Assembly: GCA_038093975.1 (NCBI GenBank) | Contig: JBBPTG010000015.1 | Coordinates: forward strand, 186,001-250,000 | Direction of reading: 5' to 3' | Source of the DNA: Chalciporus piperatus | Taxonomy: Eukaryota > Basidiomycota > Agaricomycetes > Boletales > Boletaceae | Length of the DNA: 64,000 nt | Shown: piece by piece, positions 26,682-34,817 of the stretch | Position numbering within the stretch: the stretch's first letter is position 1 | How the letters are laid out: the number at the start of each line of letters is the position of its first letter | Translations under genes and position numbers: made by a program | The notes under the pieces: generated by a model | Told to the model about the DNA's origin: nothing | Database searches by the model: none | The model's input: only the letters and a program-made list of their open reading frames with translations

Positions 26682-27009
26682 TGAGGAGGTCCGAGGGACT
26701 GAACGAATGTGATGGTGAAAGGGTGGATGGGAAGCTGTGTCTCACAGTAGATGGAAACAATATGGTGCGGAAAGAGATACCTTCAAGGAAACATTATGTA
26801 TGGAACAGTTTAGGTTCGTACCATTTTTAGTTCACGATGGGTTGATGACGAAACCTGCAGCCTTGGTGATATGATGTGATGGCCAGTGTGTGGGGTTGTT
26901 CGATGATGAGTCAACCCGATCCCCTTGGTACCAATCGACCTGATTCTGTTTTTCATACAGTAGAAGCCATCTCGGAGTTGCATAACGAGCCCCGAGAGAC
27001 TCACGCATA
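26682..27009. other. Promoter region of the DUF3455 gene, no coding exon seen
   Basis: Upstream sequence of the minus-strand DUF3455 gene. No recognised gene or repeat apart from the small element that starts just after it. Confidence 0.4.
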
Positions 27010-27068
27010 TTAGTCTCCCAAACCCGGACTCTCGATGAGCAGAAGACAGTCGTTCTGCTCTACCGAGA
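27010..27068. mobile_element. Short hairpin element, copy 1, with 8-bp target-site duplication
   Basis: A block of 59 bp (56 if counted from GTCTCCC at 27013) with an identical 39-bp core to the copy at 34489-34547. It is flanked by the direct repeat CACGCATA at 27002-27009 and 27069-27076 (10 of 11 if three more bases are included). The core folds as nested inverted repeats: outer arms TCTCG/CGAGA, inner arms GAGCAGAA/TTCTGCTC, loop GACAGTCG. No coding capacity. A non-autonomous mobile element is the simplest explanation. Starting with GT and ending in AG-A, it also has intron-like ends. Confidence 0.65.
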
Positions 27069-27076
27069 CACGCATA

Positions 27077-27694
27077 GTATCATGCCCGGAGCACTGGAAG
27101 GTTCCAGCAGAATAAGCGACATGCGAAACTCACCATGTTTCCCTCACGTACAGTGAAACTTATTCCCACCGGAGTCATGCGGGAAGCCGGTGGAGTTAGT
27201 TTCCACTGTCTGACCCAATACGCAATACGACAGCCGATGTTGTTAGTACTATGCACGGGCAAGACGAGTCGGTGTGACATCAGAGCATAAATCTAAACAC
27301 TCACCCTGGGTTCTTGAGTCCAAGTCTTGTGGTGTTCGACTTTGCCTGCTACTAGTACTAGGGATTCTTCAACGTATCGCGCTCGGATATCCAAAACAAG
27401 CTCCCTGACGATTCATGTCAAATAAACCAAGTCTAAGGCTAGATTTTAGTCAGATCGGTTCGTGGAACTAGACCATTTCCCTTTATGATTTGTCGAGGAC
27501 CGAAATTTAGAAAGTGATTATCTTCTGTCCAACATCCACTGTGTCCCCGGGCCGCTCGCGTTCCAATGCTCGTGCTGCCGAATTCAGGTTACCATGCTCG
27601 TCCAATCCGACTGAGTAAAGAATGGCTGTATCCAAGAAAGGTGATTGATATAATCCCGTCATTGAACTTTGCTAAACATTAGGTGAACATTGCT
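27077..27694. other. 3' flank of the ABC transporter gene, no gene recognised
   Basis: Lies between the hairpin element and the stop codon of the ABC transporter. No long coding frame with a recognisable family on either strand. Confidence 0.4.
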
Positions 27695-30600
27695 CTACGC
27701 CTTTGCCAGCTTCCTGAGCACGGAAAACTCTTTGTGACCCGTTGCTTTGCATAGCGAATAAAAATGAGAATTGGGATCAGACAAGAGGGTTGCTGGTCGA
27801 TCGAACTCGACGATATGACCTTCATCAAGGAGCATCACCTAAACACGAGGGTCAGATGAACAGTGCGTATCGCATGTGGATCACCTACTCGATCATAATC
27901 AATGACAGTGCGAAGCCGGTGTGCAATGGTGAGGATGGTGTTCGAGGCAAATTCCCTTTTGTCGAGTTATTAACTACACTGCAAGACCTGATGGGAAACT
28001 TACTGTTGGATGGTTTTACTGACAAGTTCGTCAGTCGCATAATCAACGCTTGCAGTAGCCTACATAAGCAATCACATCAGTTTATGGTGAATTGACATGC
28101 TTGTCAAACACCTACTTCATCCATGACCAGGACCCTAGAATGTTTCAGGATTGCCCGAGCCATACAAAGAAGCTGTTTTTCACTGAAAATGATGCGGCAT
28201 GAGGGGTGTCAATCGTTCCTGACCAAATGGTTACACACCCAGTCGAGAAATTATCACCACCTTCAGAGACCGGCGACTCAAGGTTACGGAATACGTTGAC
28301 ATTGATCGTCTCCGGTGTGGCTTCGGGCATATCTTCAGAGGGTATCAAGTGCACACGGCGAAGGGCTTCGAACTTTGGGGAGCTAAAGATTCAAAGCTCC
28401 CACGCAACGTGAAGGTCACTCACAATGTCCGTGTCCTCATATTCATCGAAAGCATCTAGTGTAGATCGTAATGTCCCACTCAAAATGGTAGGTTCCTCTG
28501 CATGAAAGCTGAGTGAGCGAGCAAATGCGACGCGGAAATTCCTGCCACTCACGAGGTATAATCGTGAGTTTACTACGTAGATCCGTTAATCCGATCTTTG
28601 AAATATTGACACCGTCAATGATGATTCTTCCTTGTGTAGCCTCCACGAATCGGAAGAATGACAGAGCAAGTGTACTCTTGCCACTTCCGGTGCGTCCTAG
28701 AATGCCGACCTAAACATCGTGGAGTAAGGGCCGGCCTTGTTGGGGTGTGAAACAGCACCTGTACCTCCTCACCGGGTCGGACTTCAAAGTTCAGATGGTG
28801 CAGTACATCAGGGAGTTCGGGCTACATGGAGGACTCGGTCACTAATGCTTACTTGCTGGAAAAGAAAGTGACGCACAGCGTATCTGATCAACAGATCCTC
28901 GCACCTGATGTGACCGCTCTCTGGCCAAGACGGACTTGGACGAGGCTCGACGAACTCGGGTGATTCGCACTGAAGCTCAGAGTATTCCTTTACGCGCTCA
29001 AGGGCAACCTAGTTTGAAGTGGGTACATCACATTGGCATAAAAGGTGAGACGACAGACCATGGATTGCTCGAGTGAAACAACGCGCCGAACCAGCAACAA
29101 GAGCTAGGGAGAATCGCCTCATATAACTTCATGCAGGGCAATGGCGATATGGACTCACATAATGGGTGATGTTATTTGCAAAGGCCAGGGCAAAGCCAGC
29201 CAAGGCAGCAGATATGCTTGGATTGAATACAGCGATGGTCCCCATCAAACCTACGACAAGGCTTGATAGCAGGTTGAACCGCATAGAAAGCCATCGAGTC
29301 ACTCGAGAGTACTGTCAGATGATGGGCATTTGAGTGGGCCTGCGAGTACATACCTCCCCACATCCAGTAGGAAGGGGCCGCGTTCTGGTTGAACATCAGT
29401 GTAAGGAGACACTCGAAGAAACTCGAACAGGTTACTGACTGTATCAACACAGCGGATCATGTCACGCAAGAACTTTGATGACGCTCCGAAAGCGCGCAAG
29501 GTCGCAACGCCAGCAATGGTCTCGCCATAAATTGAGTATAATGGCGATCGAGTCACAGATTCTTCATACCTGAATCATTAGACATCAGCAAATAAGAGGA
29601 ATATCGCACGTACGAAGACGTCTCATATCTCGCGCTGTCTGGCCATAGCCCTTGGCCACTGAGGTTCCATTAGCCCGGCCAACCGTGGATGTTAGTCAAC
29701 TCACCATGGTGGAAGAGATAGCCAAGGGCCAATGCAGCAACCACGAATGGAAGGCCGCCAATGACGCTGATGGTGATGACAAGAGATACCACTTTGATAG
29801 CCAAGAAGATAGTACGTCCAAAATTGTCGGACATACTGCTATCAATTCCTAACCGTGGACTATAAAAAAACCTCGTAGATTTCAGCATTCAGAGAGATCC
29901 ATACCCTCAAAGTCCTTGCCGAATCGGTTGAGAACGCGCCCTCGGGACACCGTATCATGGAACCGAATGTTGGCAAACAGTACGGTTTCGAGTAGCCCTG
30001 TCACTTTCGTGAGCAACCGGTGTGATGCCGGGAATGATACCCTTACTTTTGTAAAGAACGGTTGACGCACTTATGGAGCCGGTGTCTGTCGATGCACTTA
30101 GTATCAGAGGGTGAGGAGTGCCGAACGTATCTCACAAAGAATGTAATACCGGAAAACATTCATGAAAAGTCCTGCAGCGACACGTCATCTGATGAACCTC
30201 AGAAAAACCCATCATATACCTACCAAAGATGGTGACCTGGAATCACCACGACATTAGTAGATACCCTCATCTGTGAACAAACAACACACCGTAGCATAGA
30301 TAGCAACATAAAAGACAGCACCATGCCGCTCAGCCTCAGCAGGATCTGCGCCAGACCATGTCCTAAGAGAGAGTGTCAGTATCACAGCTCAGGACGTACG
30401 GTTGAGACCCACTTAAGCCACCAATTCTCTGCAACTGGACTCAAGGCTCCAAGGAGAAAAGCCAGAGCGAAGATGATCCAGTACGTGTACCCTCCACAGG
30501 CATTGATATATGTCTCCCAAATGTCTCTGCCGATATGACCAACAGCGCGTTTCTCTTCATCGATGAGCTTGCGGGGCGGCTTCTTCTGCTCCAGCTCTGG

Positions 30601-33600: not shown

Positions 33601-34212
33601 GGACGATAACAGCACGCCAAAATCCGACCAACAGAGGAAAGGTCTGGATCATTGAAGTGTCGGTTGGTCGTGACGTTGGCAGGATGGCCGTCGTGAAGAG
33701 AAGTAGCGTAGGAACAGAGGTCAATACTGCGAGATGAATGACAGACTCTGAATGTGGTTCGACTGCATTTTGGTAGACGGAGCGAACGGTGAGAGCAGTT
33801 AGATAGAAAGTGTACGCGACGTGCAAAGCGTAAGTCAGATTGCTGTCGTCCTCGCCAACTGAAATGGTCCATCCCAGGCTAACGGAATGGAGAACAAGGA
33901 TTGCCGCAAGGAGCGCAGAGACCAAAAGTTTCCAGAGGCGAACCTACAGAAAGAAGTGGGTGTGAGCGAATACCAGTAACTTAGCACGTTGCGTACATTT
34001 CTCCAGAAGGCTTCTTCGTTGATTGGATACCCGTCTATGACATCCTCTGGCCGCGTCACGTCGAAAGGATCGTGAAGAAGCGACTCAGTTTCTTCACTAG
34101 AGGTTGGAAGCTGAACCTTTGCTTGTTGTGGCCTCGTGAGATAGAAGACGAGAACACTCCCCACCGCTGTGGCTGCTAGGACAGCCGCTATGGGCAACTG
34201 GTACTCGGACAT
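27695..34212 (-). CDS. ABCC-type (MRP-like) ABC transporter
   Basis: A full-size ABC exporter of the ABCC class in many exons. The N-terminus (MSEYQLPIAAVLAATAVGSV) starts a membrane region with several helices. The first TMD ends with a Lys-rich cytosolic loop (KKKKKRDKDKDKG) and QIMTLMTTDVDRVSEFSWH. NBD1 has Walker A GKLGSGKT, signature INLSGGQKAR and Walker B SILLLDDILSAVDAHTA, with Asp where catalytic Glu is usual, a known ABCC feature. TMD2 begins near AVGHIGRDIWETYINACGG. NBD2 has GRTGSGKS-like coding near 28690, IIIDGVNISKIGLTDLRSKL, the altered signature NFSTGEKQLLCMARAILKHS, VLVMDE and the H-loop TILTIAHRLRTV. It ends GHKEFSVLRKLAKA. Such proteins export conjugates or drugs; the substrate here is unknown. 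Confidence 0.92.
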
Positions 34213-34488
34213 AGTACCACCTGTAACTGAAATCGTCAGAGGTGGAAGGTTTTTGCCTCAGGTTGGTATCGTCAATGGGGTATATTCCCCATCGTTCAAG
34301 TTGTATGCGTTGACGCTCCCGCGCTCGGCAACTTGGTACAGCGCTGAGTCTCGCTGAGCGTGCACGGTCGGACCGCAGTTGACATGATGGTCCAGCGGAT
34401 CGATCGTTGTTCCGCGGCGCCCATGTACAGACTCGAAGATCGAAATCGGATAGCCTGCTTAGCTAACGCTGTGCGGGACCGAAAACCA
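34213..34488. other. Upstream region of the ABC transporter
   Basis: Presumed promoter and 5' leader of the ABC transporter. The left copy of an 8-bp duplication (GAAAACCA) is at 34481-34488. No coding exon recognised. Confidence 0.4.
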
Positions 34489-34547
34489 GTCTGCCAAACC
34501 CCTGAGTCTCTCGATGAGCAGAAGACAGTCGTTCTGCTCTACCGAGA
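34489..34547. mobile_element. Short hairpin element, copy 2, with 8-bp target-site duplication
   Basis: 59 bp, flanked by perfect direct repeats GAAAACCA (34481-34488 and 34548-34555), which differ from those of copy 1. The terminal 39 bp (34509-34547) are identical to copy 1. The left 20 bp (GTCTGCCAAACCCCTGAGTC) match copy 1 with a few changes and small indels. It has the same orientation as copy 1; the two lie on either side of the ABC transporter gene. Different duplications at each site are what independent insertions would leave. Confidence 0.68.
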
Positions 34548-34817
34548 GAAAACCACCACTTCCATCGAGGAAGAAGGCGCGCTGAGATTCAAAGGGACTA
34601 CGAATACAGAGGGGGGATACAGTGTGCACTAATAACTTGAATACGCATCAGATTATAAGATGCACACATTCAAGTTGTCGCAAGCAAGAACAGTGGGTAT
34701 CATGGCACAACAGCAACAATATAAAAGTTAATACGGAGATGTGAAGCTGATCAAAGAAGGGTATAGTATAAATTATGTAGGGAATAAAAATCCGTTGGGG
34801 TGAGTCGGCGGCGGTGG

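Follow-up and report, generated by a model that had tools for sequence, protein, structure and literature searches.

How does a non-coding element of about 58 bp come to lie at two places in one stretch of DNA, each time within its own target-site duplication? The question is raised by a 64,000-bp stretch of the basidiomycete Chalciporus piperatus (assembly GCA_038093975.1, contig JBBPTG010000015.1, forward-strand positions 186,001–250,000; hereafter the window). A sequence-only reading had described there two 59-bp blocks with a shared 39-bp core folding as nested inverted repeats, each flanked by direct repeats, and had taken them for an isolated tiny element. Blocks, core, inverted repeats and direct repeats all lie where they were claimed to lie. 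The element is not isolated: a longer transposon, with pieces of a DUF6589 gene and a helicase gene, has this hairpin as its left end. We are highly confident that the short copies, here called stubs, are left ends of DUF6589-type transposons, and we favor, with less assurance, the fuller reading that they are left-end-only insertion products of a nuclear DUF6589/helicase DNA transposon, mechanism included. This reading is built on the following: stubs and long elements share their left ends, both have 9-bp duplications, the right ends vary, insertions are found nested in other copies, and the hairpin stem covaries around a fixed loop.

Hairpin families and their nine-base duplications

The core is not a chance repeat, because 34 of its bases match twice in the window, compared with 0.00 times on average over 100 shuffles, and because a search of the genome (35.47 Mb, 484 contigs; all genome match counts given here are lower bounds) with the 39-bp core returned at least 25 copies at ≤3 mismatches, well beyond the two first noticed, and 0 in the reversed control. 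Comparison across the family retains the two related blocks and corrects the unit from 59 bp to 58 bp, beginning TAG. Copy 1 is a 58-bp family-A stub on the forward strand (27011–27068) composed of the left end TAGTCTCC, a small hairpin and a big hairpin with loop GACAGTCG, with the hairpin foot CGAGA at its end; on its left stands CACGCATAT (27002–27010), matching the right duplication CACGCATAG (27069–27077) at 8 of 9 bases. Copy 2, a family-A stub on the same strand (34489–34547), has a diverged left arm, the core of copy 1 and the foot CGAGA at its end, and lies between the 8-mer GAAAACCA (34481–34488) and GAAAACCA followed by C (34548–34556). Judging from the family start, it has apparently lost the last base of its left duplication and the TA of the element start. 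Both duplications would therefore look 8 bp long, copy 1 being mismatched at the ninth base and copy 2 lacking the first bases of the start. The ~20 bases left of the core are one shared left arm, diverged between the two window copies. A diverged, truncated left end (TAGTCTGCCCAAATCAGACTTTCAAT) also lies in the window on the reverse strand (23703–23728), with no clear duplication; it is probably the remnant of an old copy of this sort.

Alignment of 22 of the 25 core copies (L013, with an inverted core, L017, with the same flanks as L009, and L021, with a diverged arm, were excluded) disclosed that all 22 have the left arm in common, L003 and L002 diverging most. In many family-A copies this arm forms a second small hairpin (GTCT...AGAC), which is absent from some other families. 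The 19-base start of family-A left ends, TAGTCTCCCAAACCCAGAC, was found at no fewer than 72 genome places at ≤2 mismatches, and a strict pattern of start TAGTCTCC and loop GACAGTCG at no fewer than 226, with 0 in the control and the reversed control, respectively; further left arms occur among the first 100 of the 226 places. There are at least four families, which have the start, the loop and the size in common and differ in stems that covary. The loop region of family B occurs at 147 or more places (≤2 mismatches; 0 in the control), of which 40 were sampled; two further families have the stems GTAGGAA/TTCCTAC (family C) and ACCAGAT/ATATGGT (family D), and B, C and D alike carry a 9-bp duplication. 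Copies are dispersed across many large contigs, beside nuclear genes. Three pairs whose flanks are identical or almost so (L009/L017, L038/L047 and L087/L088) are segmental duplicates or duplicated assembly contigs.

The family-A consensus unit TAGTCTCCCAAACCCAGACTCTCGATGAGCAGAAGACAGTCGTTCTGCTCTACCGAGA folds as a small and a big hairpin (z = −3.4, 0 of 200 shuffles as good); its reverse strand reaches z = −2.75, with 3 of 200 shuffles as good. Eighteen hairpins were chosen from 37 distinct 26-mers, truncated sequences and near-repeats being excluded. Their eight stem pairs were 86.8% paired, compared with 38–52% when the partner was slid, and gave a covariation score of 0.44, compared with 0.09–0.19 for slid partners; the loop stays constant while the stem changes in step across families. 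The hairpin loop is inverted in L051 and L013, and the L051 stem is a perfect palindrome; both features would fit snap-back copying.

The nine bases abutting the start recur 14–90 bases downstream exactly at 45 of 134 sites and with ≤1 mismatch at 70, the 134 retaining a few false overlaps (e.g., L002+1496, L077-1491, L051+1440 and L013-1539). Among 1,327 control 9-mers taken from further upstream, 0 recur exactly and ~0.8% recur with one mismatch. The target-site duplication claimed for the window copies is thus upheld, its length being 9 bp and not 8 bp. The first base is a purine in 50 and the last a pyrimidine in 57 of 68 flanked copies, a symmetric target preference. Exact duplications also flank truncated copies, including L026, L033, L084, L101, L105 and L107.

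A hairpin with a covarying stem and a constant loop might also be read as RNA: a small hairpin RNA of the reverse strand, ending GGGAGACUA, would be copied into DNA at nicked targets in the manner of short and long interspersed nuclear elements (SINEs and LINEs). The fixed 3' end, the variable 5' end and the folding of both strands, better than that of most shuffles, agree with this proposal. It is nevertheless very improbable in our judgment, given the constant duplication length, the symmetric target preference, the long elements that have inverted repeats at both ends with the same 9-bp duplication, and the lack of an Rfam match. At gathering scores Rfam returned no RNA family in the window, and at E up to 1 none near copy 1; the window contains no tRNA.

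Insertion can be seen directly in two nested cases. In L013 a family-A copy lies within a family-B copy, with AGTCTCCCG on both sides of the inserted copy; family-B copies without an insertion, L163 among them, have this sequence once, and the host copy is still flanked by a 9-bp duplication of its own, equal at 8 of 9 bases. At L028 the nested copy is a family-A stub of 38 bp, lodged likewise in a shortened family-C copy. Because the uninterrupted sequence of both host elements is known, the target 9-mer can be seen to have been single before insertion, which contradicts the idea that the flanking 8-mers had been doubled beforehand. Together with the 9-bp duplications at many sites, these cases bear out the earlier proposal that the element moves and makes target-site duplications.

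Stubs can interrupt genes. In a gene-interruption test of 32 sites, two joined frames were run against Pfam, of which one matched and one had no match. The former is L011, where removal of the stub and one 9-mer restores a 227-amino-acid open frame; its WD40 propeller match (residues 31–196) spans the junction at residue 81, so at least one reading frame has been broken.

Genes on the reverse strand of the window include one for a Nup96 domain protein of the nuclear pore (14743–16074), whose presence marks this DNA as nuclear, and one for a CHAT-domain protein of 1,375 amino acids with TPR-like repeats (18562–22689), whose best named relatives are from Boletus, Chiua and Mycena. Together with the transposon protein described below, which comes closest to Hydnomerulius and Paxillus, these relatives point to an Agaricomycete host, probably near Boletales.

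Long elements and their genes

Long elements of 0.4–2.2 kb have the hairpin left end, identical to that of the stubs, and a right terminal repeat, mostly with matching 9-bp duplications. L057, L058 and L059 run on identically for 1,396 bp to the right end ...GCAGACTA. Duplications are exact for these three, for L061 and C126 (internal-deletion copies of 563 bp and 401 bp) and for L163 (a family-B long element of 2,160 bp), and match at 8 of 9 bases for C91. The right end is an imperfect inverted repeat of the stretch immediately inside the left hairpin (GTCTGCTTCTGATGG...); the hairpin block is therefore an additional part on the outer side of the left end. In family-B long elements the inner repeat GTCTGC directly follows the hairpin foot.

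The gene fragments found within the elements match a helicase and DUF6589 relatives. Inward from the left end, long elements encode the N-terminal part of a protein; PF20231 (DUF6589) is present in its full-length relatives, with identities of 59% in Hydnomerulius, 52% in Paxillus, 35% in Hypsizygus and 28% in Pholiota. PF20231 has at least 46 genome matches, ~25 loci after grouping, and none in 14 control genomes. At four of the ~25 loci, among the first 100 matches each of the strict pattern and the family-B search, hairpin, N-terminus and DUF6589 domain follow one another on one strand with 1.3–1.7 kb from hairpin to domain: C43 is of family C, C48 has another left arm, and C62 and C234 are of family B.

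Inward from the right end lie DEAD-type helicase fragments, on the reverse strand both in the family-B element L163 (872–2145) and in the family-A long element L059 (2270–2707), 55% identical over 107 amino acids. The family-A piece might have been a captured host gene, an explanation countered by the 55%-identical helicase in family B; its shared place and orientation in A and B long elements suggest that the helicase belongs to the transposon. We propose a two-gene element with DUF6589 and the DEAD-type helicase as a candidate pair. The proposed plan of the long element runs from TAGTCTCC through the small hairpin, the big hairpin (GACAGTCG) and the inner repeat GTCTGC... to DUF6589 inward from the left, the DEAD-type helicase inward from the right, and ...GCAGACTA. 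Beside L163, three frames with a G-E-T-G-x-G-K-S-S nucleotide-binding motif, seen by eye (2772–4241, −; 5128–6150, +; 6327–7508, +), look like a local GTPase gene cluster.

Variable right ends and the origin of stubs

Family A has at least 72 left ends (≤2 mismatches) as against 6 recognisable right ends, a count to be read with the proviso that older right ends may exceed the divergence limit of the right-end search. The 15 matches of that search comprise these 6, 7 left inner repeats, and C225 and C94, which are diverged, lack the TA start, share their surroundings and resemble a single relic that was duplicated; no right-end stub with a duplication was among the 15. In a right-end search the reversed control gave one match per strand.

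The right ends of 70 flanked copies fall at 58–61 bp in 38, at 38–57 bp in 20, at 15 or 20 bp in 2 and at 63–87 bp in 10, those at 77 and 87 bp lying within long elements and hence being chance. Among the 20 at 38–57 bp, L013+1671 and L059+1223 (family C/D) end at or within one base of their own shorter foot, L018 ends one base short of the foot, and L103 and L148 have a shortened interior, which leaves ~15 true truncations. Stubs thus end most often at the hairpin foot, and some end inside the hairpin. In 6 of 67 rows the truncated element is separated from the duplication by exactly TA, the last two bases of a transposon end.

The sharpness of the peak at the foot in families A and B lends itself to the main rival explanation, in which the 58-bp block is a self-sufficient mini-transposon akin to miniature inverted-repeat transposable elements (MITEs), with TAGTCT and a structure-defined foot as its ends, so that stubs beget stubs. 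In the family-C and family-D copies flanked by duplications the right end likewise falls at the foot; the arm type TTCTGCTCTACCGAGA occurs on many stubs but, among longer left-end copies, on the diverged L063 alone; and L016 and L018 have a private base in common. Against this, about 20 of the 70 flanked copies end scattered before 58 bp (two of them at 15 and 20 bp) with the duplication kept, and the foot varies in sequence by family and is not an inverted repeat of the left end. We consider this explanation rather unlikely.

The TA at six junctions could alternatively reflect internal deletion, that is, full insertion at both ends followed by faulty gap repair that leaves the hairpin and the last 0–2 bases of the right end. 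The 9-bp duplication is constant on stubs and long elements, as such deletion would have it, and larger copies of this sort exist (L061 and C126). Repair would, however, have had to halt repeatedly ≤2 bases from the right end while sparing the left end, and the right-end search found no family-A right-end stub with a duplication; we judge internal deletion improbable.

In the left-end-only insertion that we prefer, the DUF6589 protein, a candidate transposase, would recognise the left hairpin and link the 3' end on the left (...GGGAGACTA) to target DNA opened with a stagger of 9 bp. Copying of the element, primed by the 3' end of the target, would begin on the left and mostly halt at the hairpin foot or within the hairpin; ligation of the new end across the gap, sometimes with TA, would then give a stub of ~15–61 bp between 9-bp duplications. 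A one-ended abort explains the ends inside the hairpin better, self-moving stubs explain the sharp foot peak better, and both may operate.

Several observations weigh against left-end-only insertion as set out here. The independent stem changes are few, from only four families whose sequences are akin within families. The foot peak coincides with the boundary of the GTCTGC inner repeat, where a cut is possible, and in some of the six rows the TA filler may have arisen by chance. No duplication was found within 90 bp at 64 of the 134 sites, among them long elements, false overlaps and copies that have probably decayed. No intact autonomous element with matching duplications was found among the copies examined: the 5.8-kb candidate C234, which has family-B left and right ends, was rejected for its unlike flanks and absent duplication, and at C62 the 1.2 kb that follow the DUF6589 domain contained no recognisable right end flanked by a matching duplication. 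As to a transposase role, no solved structure resembling DUF6589 was returned with E < 0.6, and its fold model, from a four-sequence alignment, reached a predicted local distance difference test (pLDDT) score of only 31.

More tentatively, one end may be recognised as a folded single strand: the hairpin with the invariant loop GACAGTCG would start transposition alone, most events would abort to leave ~58-bp stubs with a 9-bp duplication, and the elements would form a new eukaryotic DNA transposon superfamily (DUF6589 plus helicase). If left-end-only insertion is correct, the Pfam family DUF6589, which has no assigned function, would become a candidate transposase whose DNA ends are defined, and the stubs an abundant nuclear case of one-ended transposition in which the target duplication is fixed. 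Through its covarying stem the hairpin opens single-strand recognition by a eukaryotic transposon to direct test. In our view, stubs so short could evade ordinary repeat annotation.

Comparison with known systems

MITEs are short, non-coding and dispersed, with target duplications and both terminal inverted repeats kept. The stubs resemble them as short non-coding copies with target duplications, akin to a longer element, and differ in keeping the left end only; no repeat of the TAGTCTCC start stands at their right end, so that terminal inverted repeats at both ends are not found. Membership among SINEs or LINEs would lead one to expect duplications of variable length, as opposed to the 9 bp with symmetric preference found here. 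Helitrons carry a helicase, and in this the present element is like them. In bacteria, one-ended transposition of the Tn3 type yields one fixed and one variable end; to our knowledge, a hairpin stop and so tiny a stub are not part of bacterial one-ended transposition. No description of the element, nor of DUF6589, was found in the literature searched; repeat databases lay outside this search, so a name may exist.

For the following systems the comparison rests on excerpts of the cited papers. hAT duplications measure 5–8 bp and KDZ duplications 7 or 8 bp, and Kyakuja, a KDZ group, ends in CA..TG (PMC12730594). The 9-bp duplication on stubs and long elements agrees with the doubt of the sequence-only reading that these ends look like hAT, for which 8 bp (5–8 bp) would be expected, and equally speaks against KDZ membership. 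KDZ and the present elements are both basidiomycete DNA transposons, with ends CA..TG in Kyakuja and TAGTCT..AGACTA here. The fungal Mutator-like elements (MULEs) Hop and Mutyl have a 9-bp duplication, carry inverted repeats, 99 and 22 bp long, at either end, and encode a transposase of MudrA type (PMC5014426); they are like our elements in duplication length and unlike them as described, ours having asymmetric ends and a DUF6589 gene. In the full-length DUF6589 relatives PF20231 was the sole Pfam match above the cut-off, no genome search having been aimed at MULE genes.

Double-hairpin elements are mitochondrial, very short and thought mobile, with two hairpins (PMC10085805). The stubs share the small size, the two hairpins and the mobility; identity with such elements was rejected, since copies occur on many nuclear contigs of the 35-Mb assembly, lie in the window beside the Nup96 and CHAT genes, and are tied to a coding transposon.

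The closest parallels concern one-ended transposition. One constant end, one variable end and duplications on truncated copies, as expected of one-ended products, are all found here. One-ended joining has been proposed for Dada transposons (PMC3706591), and bacterial IS91 one-ended transposition likewise has one fixed and one variable end (PMC3627910). In Chlamydomonas, the one-ended Helitrons CRe-1/2/3 include truncated copies with duplications of ~7–19 bp and complete copies without (PMC3627910). As far as that account extends, the present elements are like CRe-1/2/3 in that one end is over-represented and the other truncated, duplications flank truncated copies, and a hairpin lies near the retained end. 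They are unlike them in having 9 bp on complete and truncated copies alike, and in their genes: those seen are DUF6589 and a DEAD-type helicase, with no Rep/HUH gene identified. Helitron membership was rejected, as the long copies bear 9-bp duplications and complete Helitron copies bear none. One-ended products with duplications are thus already known from Chlamydomonas Helitrons; what differs here is the fixed 9-bp length on complete and truncated copies.

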